Below are positions 704 through 31,082 of a stretch of DNA of 49,577 nucleotides, in pieces. The notes beneath the pieces are model-generated. The model was not told the DNA's origin. It ran no database searches and saw only the letters and a program-made list of their open reading frames with translations. Origin of the DNA: Xanthobacteraceae bacterium (GTDB lineage: Bacteria > Pseudomonadota > Alphaproteobacteria > Rhizobiales > Xanthobacteraceae); NCBI GenBank assembly GCA_030038995.1, contig JASHQS010000116.1:1-49577 (forward strand), given 5' to 3'. Each line of letters opens with the position of its first letter. The stretch's first letter is position 1. Both the position numbers and the translations under genes were made by a program.

Positions 704-1343
704 CCGCTATCCCGGCTACGAGGTGCTGCAAAAGCGCAACTCGCCGTCATGGAACGACAAGACCCGTGCCGTGATCGATCAGCGCATGGCGATCGATCCG
801 AACCATCACGCCTTCTTCACCGACGCCGAATGGCCGACGCTGCGCGCGATCTGCGAGCGCATCGTGCCGCAACCGCCGGACCGGGCGCAGCCGGCGCCGG
901 TCGCCGCCATGGTCGACGAAAAAATGCACAAGAACAGCGGCGACGGCTATCGCGACGCGCGTTTGCCGCCGATGCGCGAGGCCTGGCGGCGCGCGCTTGC
1001 GGCGCTCGATGCCGAGGCGACGTCGCGTTACGGCCGGCGCTTCCATGAACTGGGCGCGCTGCTGCAGGACGATTTGTTGAAAGCAATCCAGAACGGCGGG
1101 GTGGCCCAAAAAGCGTGGGGCGACTTGCCGGCCAAGCTGTTTTTCGAAAAGCGGCTGCTGCACGACGTGGTCAGCTCTTATTACGCGCATCCGGCGGCGT
1201 GGAGCGAAATCGGCTTCGGCGGGCCGGCTAGCCCGCGCGGCTATGTGCGCATGTCTTTCGACCGGCGCGACCCATGGGAGGCCGCCGAAGCGCGGCCCGG
1301 GAGCGAAGCCAAGGCGCGCGCGGAGAATGCCCGTGTCGGATGA
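696..1343 (+). CDS. Gluconate 2-dehydrogenase subunit 3 family protein
   Basis: This 215-residue protein has the FFTDAEWPTLRAICERIVP segment typical of gluconate 2-dehydrogenase subunit 3 proteins, small partners of membrane-linked GMC or FAD sugar/alcohol dehydrogenases. No obvious twin-arginine signal is seen at its N-terminus, unlike many family members. The ATG at 696 lies inside the end of the upstream gene, and the 3' end overlaps the GMC gene. The three genes thus form a tight unit. The electron acceptor and substrate cannot be read from sequence. Confidence 0.8.
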   Translation: MPDRYPGYEVLQKRNSPSWNDKTRAVIDQRMAIDPNHHAFFTDAEWPTLRAICERIVPQPPDRAQPAPVAAMVDEKMHKNSGDGYRDARLPPMREAWRRALAALDAEATSRYGRRFHELGALLQDDLLKAIQNGGVAQKAWGDLPAKLFFEKRLLHDVVSSYYAHPAAWSEIGFGGPASPRGYVRMSFDRRDPWEAAEARPGSEAKARAENARVG

Positions 1344-2979
1344 TGCAGAACATACCCCGCGCGCCATCGACGGCCACGCGCCGGATGTATTCCATCACGG
1401 CGGCTGGGTGCCGATGCGGCAGCATGGCGAGGATGACGCGGTCGATTTCGCCATCGTCGGCACCGGCGCCGGCGGCGGCACCTTGGCTTGCAAGCTCGCC
1501 GAATACGGCTTCTCGGTCGTAGCGCTCGACGCCGGGCCGTATTGGCGGCCGCTCGAGGATTTTGCCTCCGACGAGCACCACCAGGCCAAACTCTATTGGA
1601 CCGACGAGCGCATCGTCGGCGGCGACAATCCGCTGCAGCTCGGCGCCAACAATTCCGGCAAATCGGTCGGCGGCTCGACCGTGCATTTCGCCATGGTGTC
1701 GCTGCGCTTCCGTCCGGAATGGTTCAAGGCGCGCAGCAAGCTCGGCTATGGCGCCGATTGGCCGCTCGATTGGCGCGAAATGTGGAGCTACTACGCCGAA
1801 GTCGAGAACACGCTGAAAATTTCCGGACCGGTCAATTACCCGTGGGGGCCGAAGCGGCCGCGCTATCCGTACCGCGCCCATGAAATCAATGCCGCCGGCC
1901 TGGTGCTCGCCGAAGGCGCCGAGGCGCTCGGCATTGCCTGGTCGCCCACTCCGCTCGCAACGGTCTCCGCGCCCCGCGGCCAGTCACCGCCCTGCGTCTA
2001 TCGCGGCATGTGCGTCATCGGCTGCTCGACCAATGCCAAGCAGAGCGTTCTCACCACCTGGCTGCCGCGCGCGCTCAAGGCCGGCGCGGAAATCCGCGAT
2101 CTCGCCATGGTCGGCCGCATCGAGCACGACAAATCCGGCCGCGTCACCGGCGTGCGCTATCATCGCCAGGGCCGCTGGCGCTTTCAGCGCGCCAAGAACG
2201 TCGTGGTCGCCGGCTATTCGATCGAAACGCCGCGGCTGTTGCTCAACTCGGCATCGAGCCGCTACCCCGATGGGCTCGCCAATTCCTCCGGGCTCGTTGG
2301 CAAAAACCTCATGGTGCAGGCGAACCAGGCGGTGTGGGGCATCATGGAGCGCGAGATTCGCGCCTATAAGGGTCCGCCGTCGCTCGCCATCACCGAGCAC
2401 TGGAACTACACCGACGCCGGCAAGGACTTCTTCGGCGGCTACGCCTACATGAGCCAGGGGCCGCTGCCGCTGGTTTGGTCGGGCGTGCAGGCGAGCAAGC
2501 GCGGATTATGGGGCCGGCCGCTCATCGACGAGATGGAGCGCTACAATCATCATGTCGGGCTGAAAATCGTCGGCGAATTCATGCCGCAGGAGCGCAACCG
2601 CGTCACGCTCACCGACGAGCGCGATCAATACGGCCTGCCAATCCCGCGCGTCACCTATTCGTATTGCGACAACGACAAGCGCCTGATCGCCCATTCGCTC
2701 GCCTTCATGCGGCAGGCGCTGGAGGCGGCCGGAGCTACCGAGATCTGGGACGAGACCGACGATACCTGCCATCTCAACGGCACCGCGCGCATGGGCGACG
2801 ATCCGCAAACGAGCGTCGTCAACGCCGATTGCCGGTCCTGGGATATTCCAAATTTATGGATCTGCGACGGCTCGGTGTTCCCGACCGTGGGCGGCGTCAA
2901 TCCCTCGCTCACCATCCAGGCGATCGCCTGCCGCACCGCCGACCGCATCAAGGCGCGCGCAGCGCACGGCGAACTTTAA
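1327..2979 (+). CDS. GMC-family FAD-dependent oxidoreductase
   Basis: The protein has a dinucleotide-binding motif near its start (IVGTGAGGGTLACKL) and the characteristic GMC C-terminus: a histidine in CHLNGTARMG, then DGSVFPTVGGVNPS with the conserved Asn. It should oxidise an alcohol, polyol or sugar and pass electrons to a membrane partner. I place the start at ATG 1327; GTG 1333 is an alternative with better spacing from the GGAG at 1322-1325. A longer frame reaches back to 1243 but overlaps the previous gene heavily. It is the last gene of a three-gene unit. Confidence 0.9.
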   Translation: MPVSDDAEHTPRAIDGHAPDVFHHGGWVPMRQHGEDDAVDFAIVGTGAGGGTLACKLAEYGFSVVALDAGPYWRPLEDFASDEHHQAKLYWTDERIVGGDNPLQLGANNSGKSVGGSTVHFAMVSLRFRPEWFKARSKLGYGADWPLDWREMWSYYAEVENTLKISGPVNYPWGPKRPRYPYRAHEINAAGLVLAEGAEALGIAWSPTPLATVSAPRGQSPPCVYRGMCVIGCSTNAKQSVLTTWLPRALKAGAEIRDLAMVGRIEHDKSGRVTGVRYHRQGRWRFQRAKNVVVAGYSIETPRLLLNSASSRYPDGLANSSGLVGKNLMVQANQAVWGIMEREIRAYKGPPSLAITEHWNYTDAGKDFFGGYAYMSQGPLPLVWSGVQASKRGLWGRPLIDEMERYNHHVGLKIVGEFMPQERNRVTLTDERDQYGLPIPRVTYSYCDNDKRLIAHSLAFMRQALEAAGATEIWDETDDTCHLNGTARMGDDPQTSVVNADCRSWDIPNLWICDGSVFPTVGGVNPSLTIQAIACRTADRIKARAAHGEL

Positions 2980-3011
2980 GCGCGCGACGAAGCCGGCAGT
3001 TAGACTACCCG

Positions 3012-3779
3012 TTAGAGGGCGCGCTTGCCCGGGCGCTGGGGCTCGGTGATCTGGGAGAGCGGTGCGGGTTCGCCTGAAGCCGCCAACAGCTTGCTGATGT
3101 AGCTGTTGAAAAACGCGTGGCATTCGCAACTGTGCCGCTCGAGCTTGTCCTTGTCGGCGATTTGAATATAGCCGCGATGGCAGTTGAGCACGCCCGCCGC
3201 TTCGAGCCGGCCGGCCACCAGCGTCACGGTGGTGCGGCGCACGCCGAGCATCTGCGCCAGCGTGCTCTGGGTCAGCGGCACCTTGTCGCCGGCGCAGCGC
3301 GCCAGGATGGCGAGGAGCCAGCGGCAGATGCGCGACTCGACCGGATGCGCGGCGTGGCACAGAGCGGTCTGTTGCGATTGCGCGATCAGGGCGTTGGCGT
3401 AACGCGCCACGCGCCGCCGGATCGACGGGCTCTGGTCGATAACATAGCGAAACGCCGCCGCCGACAGCCGCGAAGCCTGTCCGGCGATGTGCACTACGGC
3501 GTCGGAAGCCGCCGGTGCCGAAGCAAGGGCGGCCATGGCGCCGACGATGCCGTCGCGCCCGATCAAAGTCGCCACGGCGCCGGGATTGTCGCGCAACGAC
3601 ATGGTGGTGGCGACCAGGCCCGAATGCGGGAAAACCACGTCCTCGACCCCGTCGCCCTGATAGTGCAGGCATTGGCCGACGCGCAACTCAAGGGGCGCCA
3701 AGTGGCTGCGCAACGCGCCGTATTCGGCTGCGGAAAGTTCTGAAAGAAAAGCGTTTTTTTCGCTTGCCTGGCCGAGCAT
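3012..3779 (-). CDS. Crp/Fnr-family transcriptional regulator
   Basis: About 255 residues. The N-terminal half is a cyclic-nucleotide-type sensor domain (FPHSGLVATTMSLRDN). The C-terminal half has a winged helix with LTQSTLAQMLGVRRTTVT as the recognition helix-turn-helix. It lacks the N-terminal cysteine cluster of oxygen-sensing Fnr; the only paired cysteines are near the C-terminus in HSCECHAFF, which is not the Fnr arrangement. The start at 3779 (MLGQASEKN) is preferred over a longer upstream extension with low-complexity residues. It is convergent with the GMC unit. Its target genes are unknown. Confidence 0.87.
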   Translation of the reverse strand: MLGQASEKNAFLSELSAAEYGALRSHLAPLELRVGQCLHYQGDGVEDVVFPHSGLVATTMSLRDNPGAVATLIGRDGIVGAMAALASAPAASDAVVHIAGQASRLSAAAFRYVIDQSPSIRRRVARYANALIAQSQQTALCHAAHPVESRICRWLLAILARCAGDKVPLTQSTLAQMLGVRRTTVTLVAGRLEAAGVLNCHRGYIQIADKDKLERHSCECHAFFNSYISKLLAASGEPAPLSQITEPQRPGKRAL

Positions 3780-16778: not shown

Positions 16779-17582
16779 TCATGGGGGTGCAATATAGCCG
16801 TACCAAGCAGCTTTTGCCGGATTCGCGCGTAGCGCACGCGTCATCTTCACATAGAGTTGGCTGCCCCAGTCAAAATGCCAGAACGTGAATGGATCGTTCT
16901 CGAAGCCTTCGCTGCTCATCGCCCAATGGAGCAGGCGCCGATACCTCAGCCGCGTGTCGTCGTCAGCAATCGCTCCCGCCGCGAGTTTTCGTTCGAAATA
17001 GTCCGTCGCGGCGATGTCGTTGATATCTTCGAAACGACCGCCGAGATCGCAGTAGGTGCCGCAATCGAGGTCGCGCAGCGACAGGTCCACCGCCGCGCCC
17101 GTGGCATGGGTCGGCCATGTCGCCGGATTATCCTCGTTGAAATCGCCGGGATCGACGGCATGCCGGAGCGCCTGTGCCCGCCAAACCGCTGGCGTTCCCT
17201 CAGGCGTCGCCCGAACCGCCTCACGATAGAAGAAGTCCCACATGCCCTGCTGGCAGGCGAGCGTGCGATATCCGTCCCAAACGATCAGCCCGACGCCGAA
17301 CGGTTTGAGGCGCTGGTCGACCTTGGCCAGCATTCCGGCAACGGTCTTGCGCAGCCAAACGTCCTTGCGTGCCCCGGGCACCGGACCGAGATAGGGCCAA
17401 TTGCGCCCATCGGTCCGGGCGTGATGCGCCTCATAGGCGACACCAACGGTTTCCAGCCTGACCAAAGGCTCGTTCCGGCGCGGGTCGGTCGCGTCAAAGG
17501 GTATGGATGTATAGCGCTCGGCATACACGCTCCGTTCGATGATCGGCACTTCATACGCGAGATCGGAAAGCGACATAGCCAT
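16779..17582 (-). CDS. VanX-like D-alanyl-D-alanine dipeptidase (M15 family)
   Basis: 267 residues. Zinc and catalytic landmarks of the M15D peptidases are visible: the SxHxxGxAxD-type motif as THATGAAVDLSL, DGYRT upstream, and WHFDWG near the C-terminus. VanX-type enzymes hydrolyse D-Ala-D-Ala or other small D-dipeptides, for resistance or for recycling cell-wall peptides. The protein is longer than classic VanX (about 200 residues) owing to N-terminal sequence. It lacks a clear signal peptide. It follows the phosphoribosyltransferase-like gene with a 12-bp gap, so they are probably co-transcribed. Confidence 0.85.
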   Translation of the reverse strand: MAMSLSDLAYEVPIIERSVYAERYTSIPFDATDPRRNEPLVRLETVGVAYEAHHARTDGRNWPYLGPVPGARKDVWLRKTVAGMLAKVDQRLKPFGVGLIVWDGYRTLACQQGMWDFFYREAVRATPEGTPAVWRAQALRHAVDPGDFNEDNPATWPTHATGAAVDLSLRDLDCGTYCDLGGRFEDINDIAATDYFERKLAAGAIADDDTRLRYRRLLHWAMSSEGFENDPFTFWHFDWGSQLYVKMTRALRANPAKAAWYGYIAPP

Positions 17583-17594
17583 CCCAAGCCCCCT

Positions 17595-18476
17595 CTATGC
17601 CCGCAAGATCGCCCGCTCATCGCCGAACACGGCGCGCTCCACGGCCTGAATGTTTTCCTCAAATAGCGGGCCGCCATAGAGACCTTCGCGCAGGATCGCA
17701 CGGCGAAGCATCTGCCGCTTCGGAGGTCGAAGCGCTTCGAAGATGGCCGCGAGCTCCTGGGGATCGTGGGACATGAGGCGGCAGATCAATTTTGCCGTCG
17801 GGTCGAATTCGCAATCGCTCAGGAAGGCGGTGAATTCCGCAAGATCGGTGATCCTCGACGTGTTGATCTCGTTCTCGAGCTGAGGAAACGCACATCCTAT
17901 CTTCCGGTCGACATTGACAATCAAAAGCACGTCGAGACTCTCGACCGCCGCACTTTGCAAAAGCTTCGTGATCGTGGCGAGCTGGGTGCCGGTGACATTG
18001 ATGTCGTTCACGAAGATGGCGTGACGGCCTTGGAAATTGGCAAGATCGTAAGTCGCGCTTTTATGGAACGGCAAATAGAACTGCTGGCGCTTCTTCAGGT
18101 CGTGCTTGCTGTATCCGCCATAGGCTTCGAATTCAGCCAGGCTGCTGATCGGTCTCCTGGGGCCCCGGGCGTCGATCGAGACAAGACGCGGAGCCTGACC
18201 ATCGGGCAATGCTTTGGCAAGTTGGCCGCAGAGAGCGCGGCACACCAGATTTGCACCGCACGGCAAGCCCCGCAGCGGCAGCGGCGGCGAAGTCAGCACC
18301 CGGCCGCGACCTTTCGCAGGCACGTCGGCGATCGCCTGCAACGCCATAGGCGCCAGCAATTCGGCGAAGTAATTCACGCTCGCCAAATGCCCGAACTTCA
18401 TAGCAGGGTAATGCGCGAAGATCGGGCTCCCCAGGCCGAACGGATAGGTACTGATGGTGTGCAGTGCTGACAGCAC
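17595..18476 (-). CDS. Phosphoribosyltransferase-like protein
   Basis: About 293 residues from GTG 18476, which has GGAG ten bases upstream; the frame is open to 18557. HAIFVNDINVTGTQLATITK resembles the PRPP-binding loop (hydrophobic-DD-x-x-TGxT) with the first acidic residue replaced by Asn. The rest (YGGYSKHDLKKRQQFYLPFH) does not match a nucleotide-salvage enzyme I know. It precedes the VanX-like gene closely. The substrate is unknown. Confidence 0.65.
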   Translation of the reverse strand: MLSALHTISTYPFGLGSPIFAHYPAMKFGHLASVNYFAELLAPMALQAIADVPAKGRGRVLTSPPLPLRGLPCGANLVCRALCGQLAKALPDGQAPRLVSIDARGPRRPISSLAEFEAYGGYSKHDLKKRQQFYLPFHKSATYDLANFQGRHAIFVNDINVTGTQLATITKLLQSAAVESLDVLLIVNVDRKIGCAFPQLENEINTSRITDLAEFTAFLSDCEFDPTAKLICRLMSHDPQELAAIFEALRPPKRQMLRRAILREGLYGGPLFEENIQAVERAVFGDERAILRA

Positions 18477-18617
18477 GCGATCGCCACTCCGTCCTCGAGC
18501 GCCGGCCCGCCAAGGGGCTGCTGCTGTTGTGCTCCACGCTCGAACGGCGCAGAGCACACAGCCTTGGACGTTAAAGCGCGACCGGCCGGTCGCGAACCGA
18601 TCGCGCTCTTGGCATTA

Positions 18618-20600
18618 CTACGGCAGCGGTTTGGTCGGTTTGAAAATATGACTGACGAAAGTGCTAGCGGGCTTCGTCACGTCGCCTGTGACGTCGCTAT
18701 GACAGCTGAAGCAATTGAAGCCCGTCTTAGAAGTGCCGTCTGTCCCCTGTTGAAAAGTCTCCATCGTGCTGTTGAACAGCATGCTGGTGCCGACCACGTT
18801 ATACGGGGGCGGGTTTGGGGGGTTTGCAGCGTTGTTGGGATAGGCGCCGTTGGGAGTGAGCTTACTGGGCTGGCCGCCGCCGAAGGTCCAGGTCGAGCCG
18901 ATCATGAGGTAATTGTACCGCGGATCGGTGCCGGCGCCCCCGGCGCTCAGTTGCGCTTGTACATTGGTGTCGATCGAGATGATCTCGGTGTTGGCGGCGG
19001 CCGGCGTCTTGTCCTCGTTGTTGGGAACACCGTTGGAGGCGACGCCCCAAGGCTTCATGCGCAGGACGTTGCTTGGCGGCAAGATCGCTGCCGATGTCGT
19101 ATATGCAACGATATGCCCCGACAGGTTCGGCGACGACGGGCACTGTTTTGTGGGTTGATTGCTGTTCGGACAAAGAACCGCCAGTTCGGCGTTATACGGC
19201 GCGGCGGCGCCATTGGCCGAGAACAGCCAGTTGCCTGTCGTGCTCTGCTGGACGGTTAACGTCTTTCCACCGCTGTTGTACTGATAGGTCGCGAGCGGCG
19301 TATTGCGCAGGTGCTCGAATGTGGCCCAGATCATTTCCGGATGATTCTTGGCGCTGCCCACGAAATGCGCACCGACCAGCGCGACCCTGGCGGGTTTGGT
19401 TCCGGTGGGCACCCAATCTCTCGGGTTGCTCGTATTGTAGGTCGGCACATTGGCTTGCGTGGTGATGTAGCCCTGCGCGTTGTTGGGCAGAGTCGCCGCG
19501 TCCACCCAGGAGAGCTTGACTTCGACGGCGAGCGCGTCGCCGTCCGGGAAGCTCGGCGGCCCGCCATGGGCCTTCGAGAAATTCTCGATCGCCGTCAGGT
19601 CATTTGCCGAGGTGGGGAACAGGCCGTAAGTGGCCGGATTGTTGGGGTTGTAATACGGCGCTATGCCGCCCTGCGTCTTGCGGCCGGTGAGGTACCAGGC
19701 GTAGACATCGTTGACCAGGGTCTCATAGAAAATCACCGAATTCTGCTGCGAGTTCAGCACGCCATTGCCGCCAGCCTGGCCCGGCCCGAGATTGTCGACG
19801 ACGCCGGTGCCGGCTTCAACGAAGACCGGGCCGCTGCCGGTGTTGAACTGGATCAGCACCCTCGCGGCGGTCAACGCGTCGGCGACCTGCTGACGTTGGG
19901 CCGTTGCGCTCAGTGCCGTGGGGCCGCTCGACGGCTGCAGCAAGCCAGTCAAGCGGCCGAGCGTTTGCGGCAGCATGTCGGCGGTCACATTCGGCGTAAC
20001 CGTCACGAGGTTGTTGTTGGCATCGCGGAACACCGCCTTGCCGTCGGGGCCGGTCTCGACCGTGGCAATCCGGGCTTGCCTATTTCCCGGAAGGCTCAGC
20101 GTGGTGATGCCCGCGTTGCCCGGTGCGGTGACGAATTCGCGCACATGGCCTGCGGCGTCCATAATAACCGGCAGGCCGTCGGGACCGGCTTGCGCCGCGC
20201 GCAGCGCGAAATTCCGCGGGCCGAAGGTGTTCTGCGCCACCAGGGTGCCGTTACTGACCTGATAGAAGACCTGCGTGTCGAACACGCGGCCACCCTTATA
20301 GGGGCCTGATGCCGGAGAGGTCAGCCACAGAAACATCCGCTCGGACCATTTGTAGAAATTACAATTATTACTGGTGTTGAGCAGGATGCTGTCGGCCGGC
20401 GAGACCGGTACGTTGAGGAAGGGAGGCCCGGATTCGAACCAGCTTTTGAACTCGCTCGCCGGCACGACGCAGGTCGGATCGGGATTGGGCGGCAGGACCT
20501 GCGCGTCGGCGGTTCCTGCCAAACCAGCCGCGAAGCATGCACCAAGGCCGACGAGGCCAGCCTTTGCCAGGGATTTCGATGATTGCCGGAAGTTTTTCAT
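18618..20600 (-). CDS. Large secreted protein with one haem-c motif
   Basis: About 660 residues from ATG 20600, or 19 more from ATG 20657. A Sec signal peptide (AKAGLVGLGACFAAGLAGTADA) follows the second start. Near the C-terminus NCFSCHSDV is a CxxCH haem-binding motif. The long middle part has no motif I recognise. The protein is probably periplasmic and may accept electrons. It lies downstream of the hyp operon on the same strand, with about 175 bp between, so co-transcription is possible but not shown. Confidence 0.75.
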   Translation of the reverse strand: MKNFRQSSKSLAKAGLVGLGACFAAGLAGTADAQVLPPNPDPTCVVPASEFKSWFESGPPFLNVPVSPADSILLNTSNNCNFYKWSERMFLWLTSPASGPYKGGRVFDTQVFYQVSNGTLVAQNTFGPRNFALRAAQAGPDGLPVIMDAAGHVREFVTAPGNAGITTLSLPGNRQARIATVETGPDGKAVFRDANNNLVTVTPNVTADMLPQTLGRLTGLLQPSSGPTALSATAQRQQVADALTAARVLIQFNTGSGPVFVEAGTGVVDNLGPGQAGGNGVLNSQQNSVIFYETLVNDVYAWYLTGRKTQGGIAPYYNPNNPATYGLFPTSANDLTAIENFSKAHGGPPSFPDGDALAVEVKLSWVDAATLPNNAQGYITTQANVPTYNTSNPRDWVPTGTKPARVALVGAHFVGSAKNHPEMIWATFEHLRNTPLATYQYNSGGKTLTVQQSTTGNWLFSANGAAAPYNAELAVLCPNSNQPTKQCPSSPNLSGHIVAYTTSAAILPPSNVLRMKPWGVASNGVPNNEDKTPAAANTEIISIDTNVQAQLSAGGAGTDPRYNYLMIGSTWTFGGGQPSKLTPNGAYPNNAANPPNPPPYNVVGTSMLFNSTMETFQQGTDGTSKTGFNCFSCHSDVTGDVTKPASTFVSHIFKPTKPLP

Positions 20601-20680
20601 TTTCGTCCGTCCCTCTTTCTCTCCTGAGGATTTCGATGATTGCCGGAAGTTTTCCATTTTCGTCGCTCCCTCTTCTCTGC
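20571..20680. repeat. Duplicated translation start region (57-bp offset)
   Basis: Two copies of about 53 bp (20571-20623 and 20628-20680) each contain an AG-rich ribosome-binding region and an ATG followed by codons for NFRQSSKS. The offset is 57 bp, exactly 19 codons, so both starts are in the same frame of the haem-c protein gene. Confidence 0.85.
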
Positions 20681-20774
20681 AGATGCTTTCACACCAGTAC
20701 TGACTGCAATGTTGGCGATTGCTGTCCACAGCAACTAAGGCAATTGCCGTTTGCCTCCGCTCATTTCATTTGGT

Positions 20775-21485
20775 CTACCGGTTGATGGGCGTCCTTTCGC
20801 CCACAGCCGATGCCGCCCGAGGAGGGGATTTGCCCTCCGCAGGCGCGCCCCCGGGCGGTTTGCTCCTCAAGTCGTCCCAATAATCGGCGCGCAACGTCTC
20901 GGCCGGCAGCTCACCGGGCGCCAACGGCCGGTCGATCGTCTCGACGTTGAAATTGCGGCTGAGCGGCGCCGCCCAAATTCGGGTCGAGAGCGTGACCTTG
21001 AAAATCTCGAACAGCCGCCTGTCTGCCTTGGTCTCGGCCGCGGTGCCCAGCCGGTCGGAAAGCTCGTAGAATGCCCGCGGCACGAAGTCCTCGCGCAACT
21101 TGACGAACACCGTCCTGCGGCGATCGCTCACCCACCATTCGAACTTCATGGAGCTGTTGCACTTCATGCCGCAATCGGCGTCGGCAATCACCTTGTAGCG
21201 GTCGCGTCCGACGACGCCGGTCACATAGTCGATGGCATCGCGCACGCCCGGCCCAGGGTGAGCGCCGACGACGTAGAGATCGTCACGACTCCAGAGCCCG
21301 TCCTTGGACAAAGCTTCGGCCGCGGCCTGCATCGCGCGATAGCCGACGGCCGTGCCCCACCACAAAGACCCGATGTGCTTGGTAATGGCGGCGTTGTAAT
21401 CGATCTCCTTGACCTCGCCGCGATCCTTGATGCGGACGACGGTTGCATCGACGGGCGTGACGGCGGCGGCATCATTGCTGTGCAT
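20775..21485 (-). CDS. FmdE-like protein in hyp operon
   Basis: 236 residues from ATG 21485. The segments SLWWGTAVGYRAMQAAAEAL, VGAHPGPGVRDAIDYVTGVV and CGMKCNSSMKFEWW recall the FmdE fold (subunit E of formylmethanofuran dehydrogenase and its bacterial relatives, where G-x-x-x-G-xRA and DAIQ..TG motifs recur). CGMKC could bind a metal. It follows hypE by 50 bp and so is probably the last gene of the hyp operon. Its role there is unknown; a cofactor or metal-handling role is inference. Confidence 0.6.
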   Translation of the reverse strand: MHSNDAAAVTPVDATVVRIKDRGEVKEIDYNAAITKHIGSLWWGTAVGYRAMQAAAEALSKDGLWSRDDLYVVGAHPGPGVRDAIDYVTGVVGRDRYKVIADADCGMKCNSSMKFEWWVSDRRRTVFVKLREDFVPRAFYELSDRLGTAAETKADRRLFEIFKVTLSTRIWAAPLSRNFNVETIDRPLAPGELPAETLRADYWDDLRSKPPGGAPAEGKSPPRAASAVGERTPINR

Positions 21486-21535: not shown

Positions 21536-22603
21536 CTAGCAAATTCTCGGCAGCTGCTCCCCAACCAGCATGTCGACGATGCGGCGACCGCCAAACATGG
21601 TCTGCATGACCACACGTCCCGGCGGTCCGTCGGTTGCATGACCGATGATTGCGCTGTCGCGGCCGAGCGGATGGTTGCGCATCGCGGTGAGCGCCGCTTC
21701 CGCTTGATCCGGCGGCACGACGCACAAGATCTTGCCTTCGTTGGCGAGGTAAAGCGGGTCGAGCCCGAGGATTTCGCAAAACGCCCTGACCTCTTCGCGG
21801 ATCGGCGTTGCGGCTTCATCGATCTCGATGGCGACCTGGGACGCCTCGGCGATCTCATTGAGCACCGTGGCGAGTCCGCCGCGGGTGGCGTCGCGCATGA
21901 AACGAATGCCGGGCGCCGCCGCCAGCACGGTCTCGATCAAGCCGTGCAGGCAGGCGCAATCGCTCTCGATCAAGGTGTCGAGCGCCATGTCGCCCCGCGC
22001 ACAAAGGATGGCGGCGCCATGATCGCCGAGCAGGCCGTTGACCAGCATCACGTCGCCCGGACGCGCGCTGTCCACGCCAAGCGTGAGCCCTTTGCGGATC
22101 ACGCCGATACCGGTGGTGGTGATGAACAGCTTGTCGCAGGCGCCGCGCTGGACCACCTTGGTGTCGCCAGTGACGATGGCGACGCCGGCCGCGCGCGCGG
22201 TCATCGCCATGGAGCGCGCCACCTTGCGCAGGAGGTCGATGCTCGTACCCTCTTCAATGATGACGGCACACGACAAATACAGCGGCGTCGCGGCACCGAC
22301 GGCGAGGTCGTTGACGGTGCCGCAAACGGCGAGGTCGCCGATGTTGCCGCCGGGGAAGAACAGCGGATCGACCACGAAGGAATCCGTGGTAAACGCCAGC
22401 CGGTCGCCATGCAGAGCGAGTTCGGCCAGATCGAACCGGGCCTGATCCTCCAGAGGCGCCAGCGCGTGATCGTCGAACACCGCTACGAACACGTCGTCGA
22501 TCAGATCCTTCATCGCCTTGCCACCGCCGCCATGGGCGAGCGTCACCGTCTCGACGTTGAGCTTGCCGAGCTTGCGGGTGCGGATGAACGGCGCGACGTT
22601 CAT
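21536..22603 (-). CDS. hypE: Hydrogenase maturation protein HypE
   Basis: 355 residues. HypE dehydrates the carbamoyl group it receives from HypF to a thiocyanate on its C-terminal cysteine, supplying CN ligands for the Fe of the [NiFe] site. The PurM-like ATP-binding start (LAHGGGGKAMKDLIDDVF) and the essential terminal PRIC are both present. ATG 22603 overlaps the hypD stop by 4 bp (ATGA). Confidence 0.96.
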   Translation of the reverse strand: MNVAPFIRTRKLGKLNVETVTLAHGGGGKAMKDLIDDVFVAVFDDHALAPLEDQARFDLAELALHGDRLAFTTDSFVVDPLFFPGGNIGDLAVCGTVNDLAVGAATPLYLSCAVIIEEGTSIDLLRKVARSMAMTARAAGVAIVTGDTKVVQRGACDKLFITTTGIGVIRKGLTLGVDSARPGDVMLVNGLLGDHGAAILCARGDMALDTLIESDCACLHGLIETVLAAAPGIRFMRDATRGGLATVLNEIAEASQVAIEIDEAATPIREEVRAFCEILGLDPLYLANEGKILCVVPPDQAEAALTAMRNHPLGRDSAIIGHATDGPPGRVVMQTMFGGRRIVDMLVGEQLPRIC

Positions 22604-23730
22604 ACCGCCTCCTTGAAGCGCTTCACGCCGCCGTACCGGTAGTAGGCAGCGCAGGCGCCTTCCGACGACACCATCAGCGCGCCGAGCGGTTTCTCCGGCG
22701 TGCACGCCGAGCCGAACACCTTGCATTGCCAGGGCTTGATCACACCCTTGAGCACCTCGCCGCACTGGCACGATTTCGGATCGGCGATTTTCAGATTGGG
22801 AATCGCGAACTTTTGCTCGGCGTCGTAGCGGGCATATTCATCGCGCAACTTGACACCGGAGTGATCGATCGAGCCGAGCCCGCGCCACTCGAAGAACTGG
22901 CGCAGTTCGTATACCTTGGACACCGCCTGAAGCGCTGCGGCATTGCCGCCGTCAGGCACGATGCGGGCATACTGGTTTTCGATCTCGCTTCGGCCCTCCT
23001 TGATCTGTTTCAGCACCATCCAGATAGATTGCAGGATATCGAGCGGCTCGAAGCCTGCGACTACCATCGGCTTGTTGTAGAAATTGGCGATGAACTCGTA
23101 GGGCGCGGTGCCGATCACCATCGACACATGGCCCGGCCCGAGAAAGCCATCGAGCTGAAGACCCGGGCTGTCGAGGATCGCCTTGATGGTGGGAACAATA
23201 GTGATGTGATTGCAGAATACCGAAAAATTCTCGATGCCCTCGGCTTCCGCCTGCAGGATGGTCAGCGCGGTGGACGGCATCGTGGTCTCGAAGCCGAGCG
23301 CGAAGAACACCACCTCGCGATCGGGGTTCTTGCGCGCCAGCGCCAGCGCATCCATCGGCGAATAGACCATGCGCACGTCGGTGCCCTCGGCCTTGGCCTG
23401 CAGCAGACTCTTCTTTGAGCCGGGCACCCGCATGGCGTCGCCAAAGGTCGCGAAGATCACTTTCGGATTTTCGGCGATCGACACGCAATCGTCGACGCGG
23501 CCCATCGGCAGCACGCAGACTGGACAGCCCGGCCCGTGGATCAATTCGATTTCCTTCGGCAGCATGCCTTCGAGGCCGTAGCGGAAGATCGAATGGGTGT
23601 GGCCGCCGCAGACCTCCATGATGTAGACCGGCCGCCCCGGCGGCATGGTCATGGTCGAGACCAGCGACTCGATTTCCTTTATCAGGACGCGGGCCGTCTG
23701 GCCGTCACGGAATTCATCTACGTATTTCAT
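22600..23730 (-). CDS. hypD: Hydrogenase maturation protein HypD
   Basis: 376 residues. HypD is the iron-sulfur scaffold on which, with HypC, the Fe(CN)2CO unit is built. Conserved CGGHTHSIFRYG, GPGCPVCVLP and the C-terminal cysteine region (CQCGEVLKGVIKPWQC) are intact. It overlaps the preceding SIS gene and the following hypE by 4 bp each, so the genes are translationally coupled. Confidence 0.97.
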   Translation of the reverse strand: MKYVDEFRDGQTARVLIKEIESLVSTMTMPPGRPVYIMEVCGGHTHSIFRYGLEGMLPKEIELIHGPGCPVCVLPMGRVDDCVSIAENPKVIFATFGDAMRVPGSKKSLLQAKAEGTDVRMVYSPMDALALARKNPDREVVFFALGFETTMPSTALTILQAEAEGIENFSVFCNHITIVPTIKAILDSPGLQLDGFLGPGHVSMVIGTAPYEFIANFYNKPMVVAGFEPLDILQSIWMVLKQIKEGRSEIENQYARIVPDGGNAAALQAVSKVYELRQFFEWRGLGSIDHSGVKLRDEYARYDAEQKFAIPNLKIADPKSCQCGEVLKGVIKPWQCKVFGSACTPEKPLGALMVSSEGACAAYYRYGGVKRFKEAV

Positions 23731-24419
23731 GCCGCGGCTCCTTTTGTCGTTGCCGATCCGCGGTCATCGGCCAGCAGCGTATGCACGAGATCCCACAGGA
23801 TGTGATAGGCGGCGACGTGACATTCCTGGGTGCGGTGAATAGACGTGGTCGGCACCACCAGGCAAAAATCGACGACGCCGGCCGATTTCATCTTGCCGCC
23901 ATCGCCGCCCGCTAGGCCGATTGTGACGATGCCCAGCTCCTTCGCCTTGGCGAACGCCGCCATCAGGTTGGAGGAATTGCCGCTTGTCGAGATGCCGACC
24001 AGCGCGTCGCCCTTGTGGCCTTGCGCCAGAAGCTGACGGACAAAGACGTGCTCGAAGCCCAGGTCGTTGCCGACCGCTGAGATCATCGCCAGATCGGCGA
24101 CGAGATTGATGGCGGCCAGCGCCGGACGTCCCGCAGTGATCGGGTGCACGAATTCCACGGCGACATGAGACGCATCGCAACTCGAGCCGCCATTGCCCAT
24201 GGAGAACATCCGACCGCCGCTACGGTAGACCTCCGCCAGCGCCTTGGCGGCGGCGACCAGCACGGGTCCTTGCTCGCCGAAGAAGCGCGCATTCGTCTCG
24301 CGGGAGTCGCGGGCTTTCTCCTCGACCGAATGCAGCAATGCGGCATCGAGCCGCCCCGGCGCTTGCGGCTGGCCGTGCAGGAACGGATAAAGCGCCTTGA
24401 GGTCGCCTTCGCTGGACAT
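23727..24419 (-). CDS. SIS-domain protein (GmhA-like)
   Basis: 230 residues with the sugar-isomerase fold signature MGNGGSSCDASH and ISTSGNSSN, closest in look to phosphoheptose isomerases. It lies between hypC and hypD and overlaps hypD by 4 bp. I recall such SIS genes inside hyp clusters of high-affinity hydrogenase loci, but the function there is not known to me. No lipopolysaccharide heptose genes are nearby, so a role in heptose synthesis is unlikely. Confidence 0.85.
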   Translation of the reverse strand: MSSEGDLKALYPFLHGQPQAPGRLDAALLHSVEEKARDSRETNARFFGEQGPVLVAAAKALAEVYRSGGRMFSMGNGGSSCDASHVAVEFVHPITAGRPALAAINLVADLAMISAVGNDLGFEHVFVRQLLAQGHKGDALVGISTSGNSSNLMAAFAKAKELGIVTIGLAGGDGGKMKSAGVVDFCLVVPTTSIHRTQECHVAAYHILWDLVHTLLADDRGSATTKGAAA

Positions 24420-24432
24420 GATTTGACGCTCC

Positions 24433-24714
24433 TTACCCGGCCGCCGACAACCGCATCGCTTCGATTTCGCCCTGTGCCTCGCCGAGCTCGAACAGGATTT
24501 TCAAGGTTTGCGCCGCCTCTTCCTCGTTGATCCGGCTCATGGCGAAGCCGACGTGAACCAGAACCCACCAGCCGATGCAGTCTTCGACGGTCGTACCGTC
24601 CTCTACGACGCAGGCTACGTTTACCTCGCGCTGTACGCCGCCCACATCGACCATCGCCAGTTTGCGCTCGACGTCGGTAATTCTGACGATCCGACCTGGA
24701 ATTCCCAAACACAT
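24433..24714 (-). CDS. hypC: Hydrogenase maturation chaperone HypC
   Basis: 93 residues beginning MCLGIPGRIV; the cysteine after the initiator Met is the essential residue that holds the Fe centre while HypD decorates it. GFAMSRINEEEA matches the C-terminal helix region. There is a 13-bp gap to the SIS gene and 30 bp after hypF. Confidence 0.96.
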   Translation of the reverse strand: MCLGIPGRIVRITDVERKLAMVDVGGVQREVNVACVVEDGTTVEDCIGWWVLVHVGFAMSRINEEEAAQTLKILFELGEAQGEIEAMRLSAAG

Positions 24715-24744: not shown

Positions 24745-27147
24745 TCAGGCGGCTCGTGCGTCGATCTCGCGGGCTGCGGCGATGGCCGCCTGCCCCAGCG
24801 CCAGCCCGCCATCGTTCATCGGGACTTGCGACTGGCTAAGACAGGTCAGCCCACTCTCGTCGATACGGGTTACGCATGCTTCCAATAGCGTCTTGTTCTG
24901 GAAGCATCCGCCTGTAAGCACGACGGTATCGATCGGCTCGGTATCCGATCGTCTCGCAAGGCGTACCGCCATATCCGCGACCGCGATTGCAAGGCCGAGA
25001 TGAAACCGGGCGGAAACGACCGACGCCGGCGTTCGCGATCTCAGGTCTTCCAGCAAAGCCTGCCACATCGGTCGCGGCTCGAGGATTTCCAGGCCGGCCT
25101 TCGACATCGTCTGGCAGAAAGAATAGAATCCGCGCGACTTGGCAGCGGCGCAGGCATCGTCGTCGATGAGGTCTTCGAATTCCATCGCGGCCTGGCCTTC
25201 GAACAGCACTCTGTCCGCGCAAAGCCCTACTGCCGCGGCCGCCGCATCAAATAGCCGCCCGCAGGAACTGGCCGCGGGCACGTTGACGGCGCTCGCCAGC
25301 ATGCGGTCAATGATGGCGCGCGGCTTGCCGGCGAGATAGCGCGCCAATTCCAGGTCGCCGAAATCGCGCTGCAATGCCTCCCAACCGAATGCCGCGATCA
25401 AGTGGGCGTAGGTGTTGCGCCAGGGCTCGTGAACGGCTTGCGCGCCGCCGGGCATCGCAACCGGCTTGAATGCGGCCAGGCGCCTGAAATTACGATAGTC
25501 GGCCCGCAGAAACTCGCCGCCCCAAAGGCTGGCGTCGGCGCCGAATCCCATCCCGTCCAGAACCACGCCCAGCACCGGCGCAGCGTCCAGCTCCCGGCCG
25601 TTCTCCACCATCGCGCTCGCAATATGGGCGTGATGATGCTGAACGTCGTGCAGCACGCCGCCGCCGGAAGCTCGCTGCCTGGCCAATTTGCTCGACAAAT
25701 ATTCGGGATGCGTATCGGCCGCGAAAACGCGCGGCCGGCAGTTGTAGAGTTCGCAATAGAGCTCCAGGTGCTTCTGATAGTCGTCGAACGTCGCGGCGTC
25801 CTCCAAATCTCCCTGATGCTGGGACAGGATAGCCGCTCCGTCCTTGACCAAGCAGAAAGTGGACTTCAACTCGCCGCCGAAGGCCAGGACTTCCGGCGCG
25901 TCGGCAAGGCTCTTCGGCAACGCGATCGGACTTGGCGCGAAGCCGCGCGCCCGGCGCAGCGTCCTGGCCCGGCCGCCCATGACGCGAACGACGGAATCGT
26001 CGATCCGGTTGGCGATGTCGCGGTCGTGGAGCAGCGCGCTGTCGGCAATGGCGCCGAGCTTGACGCGAACCTCGGCGTTGTCGGTAACCTGAGGTTCGTG
26101 AGAGATATTGCCACTGGTCATGACCAGCGGCACATCGAATTCCTCCAGGATCAGCTTGTGCAGCGGCGTATACGGCAGCATAAATCCCAGCGTACCCAGG
26201 CTTGGCGCAACGCTCGCGGGCAGACGTTGAAGCCCGTCCGCGCGCAACAGGACGATCGGTGCCGCCGGGCTGTGCAGAAGCTCCGATTCGAGAGGCGAAA
26301 TCGATGCGAAGCGCCGGATGACTGTTTGGTCCCGCGCCATCAGCGCAAACGGTTTTCCAAACCGCCGCTTCCGCGCGCGCAGCCGGTCTACAGCGCTGCC
26401 ATTGGTCGCATCGCAGGCAAGATGAAATCCGCCGAGACCGCGGATGGCGAGGATCTTGCCGTCTTTGATCTGACGCACGGCCGCGTCAAGCGGTGCGAGC
26501 GACAGCTCATCGGCCGGGATCGTGCCATCGAGCGATTCAAGCCATAGCTTCGGCCCACACTCCGGACAGGCGATGGCCTGGGCATGAAACCGCCGGTCCG
26601 CCGGCTCGTGATATTCGGCGGCACATGCTTCGCACATCGCAAATGCGGCCATGGTCGTGCGCGTCCGGTCATAGGGCACGCCCGTCACAATCGAAATGCG
26701 CGGTCCGCAATGTGTGCAATTCGTGAACGGGTAGCGGTAACGCCGTTCGCGCTCGTCGAGCACCTCGGCCCAGCACGCCGGGCACGTGGCCGCATCGGCA
26801 GCGACATTGGTGCGTGTTTCGCCGCCGGCGCTGCTCGCAATGCAAAAGTTTTCGAATGTCACGACTTCGTCGAGATGATGGATATCGAGACTTTCGATGC
26901 ACGACAGCGGCGGAGGATTCGCTTCCAGGCAGCTCAAAAAGCGGGCAATGCGCTTCTTTTCTCCCGTCGCCCTGATGAGGACGCCGCGGCTGTCGTTTAG
27001 AACGTGTCCGACAAGATCGTTCTCTCTTGCCAGACGCCACACCGTCGGTCTGAAGCCCACGCCCTGCACCGTGCCGCGGACGCGAATCTCGACCGTCTCG
27101 AGGCCGTGGGGCAGCCCCATCTCCACGGCGCCGGCGCTTGCGTACAT
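24745..27147 (-). CDS. hypF: Carbamoyltransferase HypF
   Basis: 800 residues with the full HypF domain order: acylphosphatase (VRGTVQGVGFRPTVWRLA), zinc fingers (CPACWAEVLD, NCTHCGPR, CEAC, CPECGP), YrdC-like and Kae1-like domains (HHHAHIASAM). It makes carbamoyl-adenylate from carbamoyl phosphate and loads HypE. Start 27147 has GAGGAG two bases upstream, rather close; ATG 27120 is possible. It heads the leftward operon and is divergent from the hydrogenase-like gene. Confidence 0.95.
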   Translation of the reverse strand: MYASAGAVEMGLPHGLETVEIRVRGTVQGVGFRPTVWRLARENDLVGHVLNDSRGVLIRATGEKKRIARFLSCLEANPPPLSCIESLDIHHLDEVVTFENFCIASSAGGETRTNVAADAATCPACWAEVLDERERRYRYPFTNCTHCGPRISIVTGVPYDRTRTTMAAFAMCEACAAEYHEPADRRFHAQAIACPECGPKLWLESLDGTIPADELSLAPLDAAVRQIKDGKILAIRGLGGFHLACDATNGSAVDRLRARKRRFGKPFALMARDQTVIRRFASISPLESELLHSPAAPIVLLRADGLQRLPASVAPSLGTLGFMLPYTPLHKLILEEFDVPLVMTSGNISHEPQVTDNAEVRVKLGAIADSALLHDRDIANRIDDSVVRVMGGRARTLRRARGFAPSPIALPKSLADAPEVLAFGGELKSTFCLVKDGAAILSQHQGDLEDAATFDDYQKHLELYCELYNCRPRVFAADTHPEYLSSKLARQRASGGGVLHDVQHHHAHIASAMVENGRELDAAPVLGVVLDGMGFGADASLWGGEFLRADYRNFRRLAAFKPVAMPGGAQAVHEPWRNTYAHLIAAFGWEALQRDFGDLELARYLAGKPRAIIDRMLASAVNVPAASSCGRLFDAAAAAVGLCADRVLFEGQAAMEFEDLIDDDACAAAKSRGFYSFCQTMSKAGLEILEPRPMWQALLEDLRSRTPASVVSARFHLGLAIAVADMAVRLARRSDTEPIDTVVLTGGCFQNKTLLEACVTRIDESGLTCLSQSQVPMNDGGLALGQAAIAAAREIDARAA

Positions 27148-27405: not shown

Positions 27406-29283
27406 ATGACAAGCCTGGGGCTGCCGATAGCCGACGAACCGCATGTCACCGGGCGGCAGGGCGAACAGCTATTTATCCCCGGAGCGATTTCTTCTTTCAC
27501 GACCGGCGGCGATGGTCCCGACGGAAGACTGTGGGCCGAAATCGAGCGTCTGAACGCGCAGGCCGCCAGCGGCTCGGATCCGTTTCGGCAGATTGGCGGC
27601 GGCCTTGCCCTCCATTGCAGCATCGATCTTGCGCAGCGCAAGGTGTCGGATGTCGCGTCCGTGGCCACGGCGTATCGTGGTTATGAATCGTTATTGCCCA
27701 ACCGGAACCTCAAAGAGGCCGGTCTCATCAGTTCGACGGCGTCGGGAATCTGTGGCGGCGTTCATGCCGCGACATCCGCGCAGTGCCTGGAGATGGCGCT
27801 CGGGATCGGACCGCCGCCGCTGGCCATCGTCGCGCGCAACCTGCTCTTGAGTTGCCAGTACCTCAACGACAACGCGATGCATCTGTTCGTGCTGTGCGGA
27901 CCGGACTATTCCGAGGACGTGGTGAAGGCCACCAATCCCGAGATCTGGACCAGGGCGCAATGCACGCCTGCTACCCATGCAACGGTTCACGGCTACGCAA
28001 CCGTCGGCGCGATTTTGACGGATCTGAACCGGACCTCCGGCAAGCTCTTTGTCGAAGCGCTCGATATGATGCGGACGGCGCGCGCAGCCTATGTTCTCTT
28101 GGGCGGGAAATATCCGCATTCCGAATCGATCTGCCCAGGCGGCGTCTCGTTCACGCTTTGCACGGAACGACTCGATGCCTTCGCCCGAAAGCTCGGGTCC
28201 TTCATCGATTATGCCAAGCGCTGCGCGCGAATTTGGGACGACGTTTTCGATTTCTTCTATGCCTGCGATCCCGCCTTCCGAGAGCTTGGCCGCGCACCGG
28301 CGAGCATGATCGACTTCGGTCAGTGGGACCACGAAGAATATTACGATGGGACCTACGAAAATTGCGGCCGTTGGGGGGAGAGGCGCTGGTCGACTCCAGG
28401 CGCGGTGATCGATGGCAAGCTTATCACGACCGATCTGACCCGGTTGAACTGCGGCATCGAGGAGTTTGTCGATCGCAGTTTCTACGAGCCGTGGCACGGC
28501 CAGCCGCACCGCGAGGATCCTGCAGGCAACCCGCTCACTCTGCATCATCCCTGGAACAAGACAATCAACCGTAATCCCGCGAAGAACTCGAGCTTGCGCC
28601 CGTATAGCTGGGCGACGGCCACAACGTGGAATCGCAGCGGCTTTGAGGTCGGTGCCTACGCTCGGCTTTATATCAGTGCGCTCGCGCGGAAAATCCCGTT
28701 CAGCGAGTTCATGGAGTCGACCGGCCGCAGCCTGGTGCTACACATTCCCGCAGGCAAGCTTGCCGACGAGCGCCTCGAGTGGCGGGTGCCGCAGATATGG
28801 AACGCCTTTGAGCGCAACCGCGCCCGTGCCTATGCAGTGGCATTCAACCTGATGGTGACGCTCGAAAACTGCCGCCGCGCCAAGAATCTGCTCTTGGGCG
28901 GCGAGCGACGCATGGCGACTCCCTTTGAGATTCCAGCAACCGGAAAGCGGCTCGGCGTCGGCTTCGGCGGAGCGGGGCGCGGTTTCCTGGCGCATTGGGC
29001 GATTCTCACCGGCGCAGAGATCAGCAATTATCAGGTCTCCGTGCCATCGCGCATCAACGGCGGCCCGCGCACCCCTTGGGGAGAATTGGGCCCGTGCGAG
29101 CGGGCACTGCTTAATACGCCGATCATCGAGTCCAACTGGTCGGACCAGGCCAGTTTCCACGGAATAGATCTTGTGCGGGCAATTCAGAGCTTCGATCCCT
29201 GCATGCCCTGTAAGATGCACTTGATCTTCAAAGGCACCGATTTCGCTTCAGCCATAGAGGTGAACACTGACGGGCTAATATGA
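27406..29283 (+). CDS. [NiFe]-hydrogenase large-subunit homologue, altered Ni site
   Basis: 625 residues from ATG 27406 (GAGGGG upstream). The whole large-subunit fold is recognisable: FRGYE-like AYRGYESLLPNR, SSTASGICGGVH (L1 region), ARNLL, VPSRINGGPRTPWGELGP and the C-terminal DPCMPCKMH (L2), followed by a 20-residue tail of the kind removed by maturation proteases. It looks closest to group 1h-type sequences, whose L1 reads RACGVCGGVH. Here the first L1 cysteine is Ser113 (TCG, 27742) and the arginine two residues before it is Thr111. The other three ligand cysteines (116, 599, 602) remain. No small subunit is present. See findings. Confidence 0.9.
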   Translation: MTSLGLPIADEPHVTGRQGEQLFIPGAISSFTTGGDGPDGRLWAEIERLNAQAASGSDPFRQIGGGLALHCSIDLAQRKVSDVASVATAYRGYESLLPNRNLKEAGLISSTASGICGGVHAATSAQCLEMALGIGPPPLAIVARNLLLSCQYLNDNAMHLFVLCGPDYSEDVVKATNPEIWTRAQCTPATHATVHGYATVGAILTDLNRTSGKLFVEALDMMRTARAAYVLLGGKYPHSESICPGGVSFTLCTERLDAFARKLGSFIDYAKRCARIWDDVFDFFYACDPAFRELGRAPASMIDFGQWDHEEYYDGTYENCGRWGERRWSTPGAVIDGKLITTDLTRLNCGIEEFVDRSFYEPWHGQPHREDPAGNPLTLHHPWNKTINRNPAKNSSLRPYSWATATTWNRSGFEVGAYARLYISALARKIPFSEFMESTGRSLVLHIPAGKLADERLEWRVPQIWNAFERNRARAYAVAFNLMVTLENCRRAKNLLLGGERRMATPFEIPATGKRLGVGFGGAGRGFLAHWAILTGAEISNYQVSVPSRINGGPRTPWGELGPCERALLNTPIIESNWSDQASFHGIDLVRAIQSFDPCMPCKMHLIFKGTDFASAIEVNTDGLI

Positions 29284-29338
29284 GCAGTGCTCGCCGGGGA
29301 AGTTGAATCGTGCATCTTGGCTTAAGATGGAGAACACA

Positions 29339-29470
29339 ATGTCGAAAGAAGCAGACGCACTATTGCGGGAACTCCTCGCCTTCGGCATCGATGCCGCCGG
29401 CGTTCACTGTGCTGTACCGCCGCCGCCCGATCAACCTGAGCCGCCACCCGATGATGATGAGCCTTGCTAG
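29339..29470 (+). CDS. 43-residue putative RiPP precursor peptide
   Basis: ATG 29339 has GGAG six bases upstream; ATG 29327 is an in-frame alternative adding four residues. Residues 1-21 (MSKEADALLRELLAFGIDAAG) form a predicted amphipathic helix, like a leader. Residues 22-43 start VHCAVPPPP, are rich in Pro and Asp, and end DDDEPC, with cysteines at 24 and at the very last position. The gene lies 55 bp after the hydrogenase-like gene and is followed by a YcaO gene, the classic partner of ribosomally made, post-translationally modified peptides. The assignment rests on context and composition; no family is recognised. Confidence 0.7.
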   Translation: MSKEADALLRELLAFGIDAAGVHCAVPPPPDQPEPPPDDDEPC

Positions 29471-29804
29471 ACCGTCGCCTCGGAACAGGGAGGGCCAACC
29501 GGATCTAAGAAAAAGACGCCAACCGGATTGACGGCGGTCTTTGTCCAAAGCCGGCGATTTGGTCAGGAGATGAGCGCGTCTGAATTGGGCCGCAGCGCCG
29601 GGCTCTGCACGAGCTCGCCCACCATAATACCGCGGTAAAGACGCGTTCTTTCCGAGGAAGCGAGGCTACATCCGGAGGCCGGTCGTGCGGCGATCGGCCT
29701 TCTTCTGCCGCGCTCGGCGCAGCCATGGCTGTGCCAAGTTCCTCGAGCGCGATCATGGGCCGAGCATACCCGCCCTCCGCCGGTGAAGGTGCGGAACAAC
29801 GACA
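29471..29804. other. Gap between peptide gene and ycaO
   Basis: 334 bp. It contains a short direct repeat (GCCAACCGGAT at about 29497 and 29519) and a 22-codon frame from ATG 29569 directly after AGGAG, which I do not regard as established. A leftward open frame runs through it but has no recognisable domain. A transcript from the peptide gene could continue into ycaO, or ycaO may have its own promoter here. Confidence 0.4.
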
Positions 29805-31082
29805 ATGGGCGCCGCCGGGTGGGTTTCGCTTTCTCGGTTGGATGGGTGGAAAGATTTGCATACCAGCTCCCGTGGCGTTCCGCCGCAGACAACGCTACGT
29901 TATGCGAAGGCCTGGGCGAAATTGGCCGGCATCCATGAAGTCCGCGACATCACCGCGATGGATTGCCTCGGCGTTCCGATATTCGTCAGCGAACGGCGAC
30001 GGGCGGCGTCCCGCGCTTACGCTTTCGGCAAGGGCTGTCTGCCGATCGACTCGGAGGTCGGCGCCCATATGGAAGCGATCGAGTCCTACTTCTCGGAGCC
30101 GGGGGTCGCGCGAGTAGAAACAAGGCGCGGCAGGCCATCCGACCTGTCAGGCGTCGGCGCGGGCTGTGATCCGATCCTTGAATTCGCGCCGAAGTTCGAT
30201 TGTCGCGCCGATCCCGAACGAACCCTCTTTCTCGCGCGCGCAGAGGATGTGGAAAGCGGCGCTGAGGGCTGGGTCCCGGCCGAGCTGGCATTTAATCCGC
30301 CGCCGCCCGAGATCGACACAGCGCTCTACGGCTCGTCGAGCAACGGCTTGGCGTCTGGCAACTCCGTGTTGGAAGCGAGCATTCATGCGCTCTACGAATT
30401 GATTGAGCGCGACATCTGGTCGATCGAGTTCGTCCGCAACCGTGCGGCCCGCGTCGACGATGACGGTCTACCTCGTCACGTCCACAAGATCATCGAAGCT
30501 GCCACCCATAACGGCCTGCGGCTGGTGGTCCGCTACGTCCCCAACGATTATGGCGTCCCGTTTTTTGCGGCATTCTTGTTCGACCCGAACAAGCTCGAAA
30601 GCCGCTTTTTCAATGGCGGTTGGGGATGCCATCACGAGCGCGGGATCGCGCTGATGCGCGCAGTCACGGAAGCCGCGCAAAGCCGCCTGGCCTTCCTGCA
30701 CGGCGGACGCGAGCCGAAAAGATCGGACGATTCCTTTGCCAAGGCCGATCGCATGAAGCAGCAAATCGAGGCCACTTCGAGGACGACACCGTCTATTCGG
30801 TTCGAGGATATTCCGGACCAACCTCACGCAGGGCCATTAGCCGCACAGTGGGCCGCTGCGGTAGGCTGTCTGCGACGCGTCATCGACCGGCCGATTTATC
30901 GGGTGATCTATACGCCATCCGAAGGGCCGCTCCACGTCGTCCGCCTGATTGTGCCGCGGCTGGAGCATTTCACCCGATCGACGATGCGCATAGGTCCCAG
31001 GATGCAGGCGGAACTCGAAGCTCTCAGCAAGCCCGCGGCGGCGGGGAACCCTTCTATGGATAGCGATTGCTCGGCGGTCTGA
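29805..31082 (+). CDS. YcaO-domain ATP-dependent cyclodehydratase/thioamidase
   Basis: 425 residues. The ATP-binding YcaO core is clear: SSNGLASGNSVLEASIHALY followed by ELIERD, with RAVTEAAQSRL downstream. YcaO enzymes activate peptide-bond carbonyls with ATP to form azolines or thioamides on peptides, or modify ribosomal protein S12. The N-terminal part (GVPPQTTLRYAKAWAKLAGI) matches stand-alone YcaO proteins. No TfuA gene is adjacent. The start at 29805 is the first ATG after an in-frame stop and has only a weak ribosome-binding site, so the true start could be slightly downstream. Confidence 0.88.
   Translation: MGAAGWVSLSRLDGWKDLHTSSRGVPPQTTLRYAKAWAKLAGIHEVRDITAMDCLGVPIFVSERRRAASRAYAFGKGCLPIDSEVGAHMEAIESYFSEPGVARVETRRGRPSDLSGVGAGCDPILEFAPKFDCRADPERTLFLARAEDVESGAEGWVPAELAFNPPPPEIDTALYGSSSNGLASGNSVLEASIHALYELIERDIWSIEFVRNRAARVDDDGLPRHVHKIIEAATHNGLRLVVRYVPNDYGVPFFAAFLFDPNKLESRFFNGGWGCHHERGIALMRAVTEAAQSRLAFLHGGREPKRSDDSFAKADRMKQQIEATSRTTPSIRFEDIPDQPHAGPLAAQWAAAVGCLRRVIDRPIYRVIYTPSEGPLHVVRLIVPRLEHFTRSTMRIGPRMQAELEALSKPAAAGNPSMDSDCSAV

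Follow-up and report, generated by a model that had tools for sequence, protein, structure and literature searches.

In [NiFe]-hydrogenase large subunits the first conserved cysteine (Cys1) is a terminal nickel ligand, and the Fe(CN)2CO unit made by HypCDEF is, to our knowledge, known from no other setting than the NiFe site, of which it forms one half. PMC12134894 mentions no other client for this unit, and a nickel-free large subunit binding Fe(CN)2CO has been observed as a maturation intermediate (PMC11565642). The solved structure closest by sequence and fold to the large-subunit homologue described below is HofG, from the actinobacterial-type (group 1h) [NiFe]-hydrogenase of Cupriavidus necator H16 (PDB 5AA5). 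The Cupriavidus group 1h operon has the same gene order as our locus, hypF-hypC-SIS-hypD-hypE, but continues to hypA and hypB. Stand-alone YcaO RiPP systems, such as those for bottromycin and streptamidine (PMC8442711), also place a YcaO enzyme without an E1-like partner beside a short precursor, but their precursors are unrelated to the peptide reported here, and in the literature searched no hyp gene or hydrogenase homologue adjoins any of them. Homologues of hypE and hypF, but no other hyp genes, occur near a RiPP candidate in an ATP-grasp candidate cluster (PMC7794033). The preliminary description of our locus knew of no pathway joining its parts, and our own searches agree: they returned no paper combining YcaO with 'hydrogenase large subunit' or 'NiFe hydrogenase', and broader searches yielded no description.

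The window, a 49,577-nucleotide stretch of DNA from a Xanthobacteraceae bacterium, was examined from the rightward large-subunit homologue, peptide and YcaO genes to the leftward hyp run down to position 16779 (Table 1). The rightward trio and the divergent hypF, hypC, hypD and hypE lie where the preliminary description had placed them, and five further genes were missing from its list (SIS/GmhA-like, FmdE-like, cytochrome-c-like, PRTase_3-like and M15-like).

Table 1. Features of the locus, in window coordinates
Feature	Position	Strand	Remarks
HupL* (name used here), orphan [NiFe]-hydrogenase large-subunit homologue	27406..29283	+	625 aa
RiPP-like precursor peptide, 43 aa	29340..29471	+	leader ends AA-x-x-HC; Pro/Asp tail variable
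YcaO enzyme	29805..31082	+	177.5 bits; start codon uncertain
hypF, carbamoyltransferase	24745..27147	-	above NCBIfam hypF cut-off
hypC	24433..24714	-	above NCBIfam hypC cut-off
SIS-domain (GmhA-like) gene, between hypC and hypD	23727..24419	-	
hypD	22600..23730	-	above NCBIfam hypD cut-off
hypE, C-terminal end PRIC	21536..22603	-	above NCBIfam hypE cut-off
FmdE-like protein	20775..21485	-	PF02663 below cut-off; start approximate
Large cytochrome-c-like protein, signal-like N-terminus, one CxxCH	18618..20729	-	
PRTase_3 (ComF-like) protein	17595..18557	-	
M15 (VanX-like) metallopeptidase homologue	16779..17582	-	usual catalytic Glu replaced

HupL* matches the Pfam NiFeSe_Hases model with 185 bits (E 3e-54) and has the large-subunit fold of [NiFe]-hydrogenases, aligning with HofG over 525 residues (Z 48.4, rmsd 1.9) at ~33% identity. 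It differs from HofG in that the first cysteine of the RxCGxC motif is a serine, Ser113 (27742-27744), a point absent from the preliminary description. Cys116, Cys599 and Cys602 are kept, as is the C-terminal extension, for which the structure model shows a folded hairpin (block pLDDT about 85).

Homologue scans, which drew loci from Xanthobacteraceae, from the order of Rhizomicrobium (Micropepsaceae) and from Oxalobacteraceae with relatives in that GTDB family, and which also reached the order of a Methylococcaceae MAG, yielded 12 orphan homologues of the large subunit, spread over alpha-, beta- and gammaproteobacteria, that form a single clade (support 100/100), hereafter the Ser clade. In the alignment, ASGIC replaces RxCGxC in 12/12 of these proteins, so that the Cys1 position is a serine throughout; the four-cysteine signature (RxCGxC plus DPCxxC) is incomplete, and by the membership criteria applied HupL* falls outside the [NiFe]-hydrogenases. 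All 12 members have Cys2 and Cys3, Cys4 is present in 11/12, being also lost in L008, and the histidine at the protease cleavage site is altered in 4/12. The nearest Cys-intact relatives, from Pseudaestuariivita atlantica (L007) and a MAG (L100), are sister to the Ser clade and about 52-54% identical to HupL*. They too have FmdE-like and hyp genes nearby, but differ in keeping RACGVC and all four cysteines and in having a small subunit gene and a protease-like gene; neither locus revealed a PRTase-like, M15-like, YcaO or peptide gene. All 12 Ser-clade proteins have Cys127 (27784-27786), which sits three helix turns past Cys116; both sisters have a serine there.

Compared with the HofG locus, the window has no adjacent gene for a small subunit, HypA, HypB or the protease; no small subunit gene occurs elsewhere in the window, nor at any of the 12 Ser-clade loci. 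In the window genome (G000) and in G448 none of the PF01058 matches could be assigned to such a small subunit; PF01058 matches exist in G018 and G445 as well. The matches in the window genome comprise one NuoB-sized ORF, named by size only from an incomplete flank, and two Hyf-like membrane complexes (contigs C252 and C226; L074 and L075) whose large-like subunits lack nickel-ligand motifs, and the two matches in G448 both look like NuoB. No small subunit gene was found paired with HupL*, in keeping with the preliminary description, which had seen none. Whole-genome searches of G000, G018, G445 and G448, three of which are MAGs, gave no match to HypA or to the C-terminal protease HycI and nothing over the family cut-off for HypB. 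Identical searches recovered all three in G446, and a fifth genome, G447, has HypA and HypB alongside another hydrogenase. Protease cleavage normally needs nickel in place, and high nickel can bypass HypAB (PMC12134894).

The HypCDEF pathway to Fe(CN)2CO is present, with the order hypF-hypC-SIS-hypD-hypE kept in all four genomes searched whole. The possibility that this operon serves another hydrogenase of the window genome was considered and rejected: the other large-subunit-like proteins found there are Hyf-like and lack the cysteine motifs, leaving HupL* as the only likely Hyp client found. Taken together, the lost nickel ligand, the missing HypA, HypB and protease and the retained hyp genes point to a nickel-free protein that would bind Fe(CN)2CO. 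An Fe-cyanide-carbonyl centre had been proposed in the preliminary description, and these losses strengthen an Fe(CN)2CO-only version of that proposal, with binding predicted from sequence. Cys3 (C599), a terminal nickel ligand position, is still invariant, so another metal could occupy the nickel side, which counts against this explanation. Also on the contrary side stand the loss of Cys4 in L008, the coverage of the nickel-gene searches at four genomes, HypA and HypB in G447, and the HypAB bypass at high nickel.

Several of the neighbouring genes recur with the large-subunit homologue. An FmdE-like gene occurs in every Ser-clade locus extending that far, and a PRTase_3 (ComF-like) gene in nine Ser-clade loci and in neither Cys-intact sister locus, so that among the loci read it is restricted to the Ser clade. 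The PRTase_3 protein of the window carries an NDIxVTG loop. PRTase-like and M15-peptidase-like genes, both found in the window, are shared by the six beta/gamma members; no M15-like gene was seen in the stretch of L099 that was read. The M15 homologues keep HxxGxxxD and WHxDWG, but 8/8 aligned have another residue in place of the EWWH Glu of VanX, and judging from these motifs the protein is perhaps not a peptidase. A gene for a CxxCH protein adjoins hypF in three betaproteobacterial loci, and in one betaproteobacterial locus (L086) a large ORF (1251-3362), TonB-dependent receptor-like by eye, lies upstream of it. The AlphaFold model of the cytochrome-like protein, with a pLDDT of 31, is unusable. 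The core of the system is the putatively nickel-free protein, the Hyp operon and the FmdE-like gene, with the PRTase-like and M15-like genes where contigs reach.

Between the large-subunit and YcaO genes, one or two short ORFs were found in 6/6 alphaproteobacterial loci, two of which hold two tandem copies. The encoded peptides share the form M-[SP]-...-L-x-x-LLA-x4-AA-x-x-HC (single changes allowed) followed by a variable, often Pro/Lys-rich tail; their conserved core is LLA....AA..HC, within which the internal A-A-x-x-H-C is invariant. The window peptide reads MSKEADALLRELLAFGIDAAGVHCAVPPPPDQPEPPPDDDEPC. Its C-terminal Cys and Asp features, to which the preliminary description had drawn attention, are not conserved among its relatives, and in Rhizomicrobium the tail is KK only, so neither the Asp run nor the final Cys is an essential feature. 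Codon changes in the leader are mostly silent (pN/pS about 0.2-0.55), indicating purifying selection. A profile built only from the peptides of the other sub-clade ranked the window peptide among the best three of 2042 reading-frame segments (E 6e-10), with the next non-peptide segment at E 0.07, and a one-sub-clade profile recovered the remaining peptides at E 1e-6 to 2e-10. A chance ORF is ruled out by the 6/6 occurrence, the selection on the leader and the cross-clade profile. A short ORF beside a YcaO gene, with a conserved leader and a variable C-terminal part, is the make-up of a YcaO-dependent RiPP precursor. The AAGVHC of the window peptide was also likened to the large-subunit motif CGGVHA, a resemblance that the other peptides lack and that we take as coincidence.

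The six HupL*-linked alphaproteobacterial YcaOs form one clade (100/100) whose tree is broadly congruent with that of the large subunits, and YcaO genes of comparable similarity occur in only 7/384 other sampled genomes of the class. Their closest relatives, at about 30% identity, are the TfuA-partnered YcaOs and MJ1094, the McrA-thioamidating enzyme to which the window YcaO comes closest among solved structures, and their best NCBIfam model is the McrA-glycine thioamidation protein (169 bits against a cut-off of 365). Azoline-forming YcaOs have a PxPxP C-terminus, which in the alignment is absent from the window YcaO as it is from the MJ1094 and TfuA types. Because these nearest relatives form thioamides, backbone thioamidation by the linked YcaO appears likelier than azoline formation. 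The window enzyme differs from them in having a peptide in place of McrA and no adjacent TfuA gene; by inspection, no TfuA-like ORF was seen beside the YcaO gene in the listed loci, which on this count fall outside the TfuA-YcaO thioamide RiPPs. For alphaproteobacterial YcaOs outside the linked clade, TfuA next door was confirmed in 5/7 cases.

The preliminary description had grouped the large-subunit homologue, peptide and YcaO as one candidate system and had suggested looking for a YcaO and a short ORF beside other homologues. Both recur at 6/12 homologues and are missing from the other six, all beta- or gammaproteobacterial: none of these loci has a YcaO gene, the peptide profile found no peptide in them, and the two YcaOs of Undibacterium lie outside its HupL* locus and do not match the window YcaO (BLASTP, 1e-5). 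The refuting outcome that the preliminary description had named, homologues usually lacking both, is therefore half realised. The grouping holds for the alphaproteobacterial loci, where linkage is complete (6/6) and the trees broadly agree, but not for the clade as a whole. The YcaO-peptide pair is a clade-specific module rather than part of the core, an addition of one sub-clade whose linkage has been retained. No plasmid homologues above 60% were found for HupL* or YcaO, and none for the peptide.

We lean towards the explanation that HupL* is nickel-free, loaded with Fe(CN)2CO and, in the alphaproteobacterial sub-clade, acting with a YcaO-modified His-Cys peptide. HupL* would derive from a [NiFe]-hydrogenase large subunit, receive Fe(CN)2CO from HypFCDE and act as a cytosolic protein that needs no small subunit. 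The bridging cysteines, Cys116 and Cys602, would probably hold the Fe(CN)2CO unit, with the nickel side vacant or re-used and the C-terminus unprocessed. In members of the alphaproteobacterial sub-clade, YcaO would modify the peptide beside its invariant His-Cys. Thioamidation of the backbone is the likeliest modification, and the product would most likely work with the nickel-free protein, whether by filling the empty nickel side as a ligand or by serving as its substrate. The six members that do without YcaO and peptide speak against this explanation. That these proteins constitute a mononuclear Fe(CN)2CO class, Hyp-dependent and nickel-independent, with the modified peptide as nickel-side ligand or substrate, is a tentative proposal that we consider possible rather than probable.

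The peptide and YcaO might instead make a stand-alone RiPP, such as a metal-binding or signalling peptide, merely sharing a transfer unit with HupL*. Such a product would fit the beta/gamma members that lack both genes, as well as the variable tails and tandem copies typical of RiPP precursors, but the pair lies directly downstream of HupL* in 6/6 loci, spanning Xanthobacteraceae and Micropepsaceae-order genomes, the two trees are broadly congruent, and no exporter or export-linked protease was noticed beside YcaO, making this reading unlikely. We think it quite improbable that YcaO thioamidates HupL* itself, as McrA is modified by its own YcaO, with the peptide serving as guide or chaperone. 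The McrA-type NCBIfam model and the kinship with MJ1094 favour this, as does the modification of McrA without TfuA in M. jannaschii (PMC5589413), but the score falls well under the equivalog cut-off and the peptide looks like a substrate. A decayed uptake hydrogenase heading for loss would explain why nickel ligand, small subunit and protease are all gone, but is scarcely credible given the long, uninterrupted reading frames of 12 members from three classes, ~50-60% identity across sub-clades within a fully supported clade, intact hyp operons, invariant remaining cysteines and a newly gained, invariant Cys127.

If HupL* is a nickel-free Fe(CN)2CO protein, the iron half of the hydrogenase site would have been kept and the nickel dropped, giving a new kind of metalloprotein in which the cyanide-carbonyl iron unit is used outside hydrogenases. 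The clade would then be a natural test bed for Fe(CN)2CO acting alone, and one species that carries the core system, Undibacterium flavidum, is in culture. The paired peptide family opens up a YcaO chemistry in which a protein is the likely partner.
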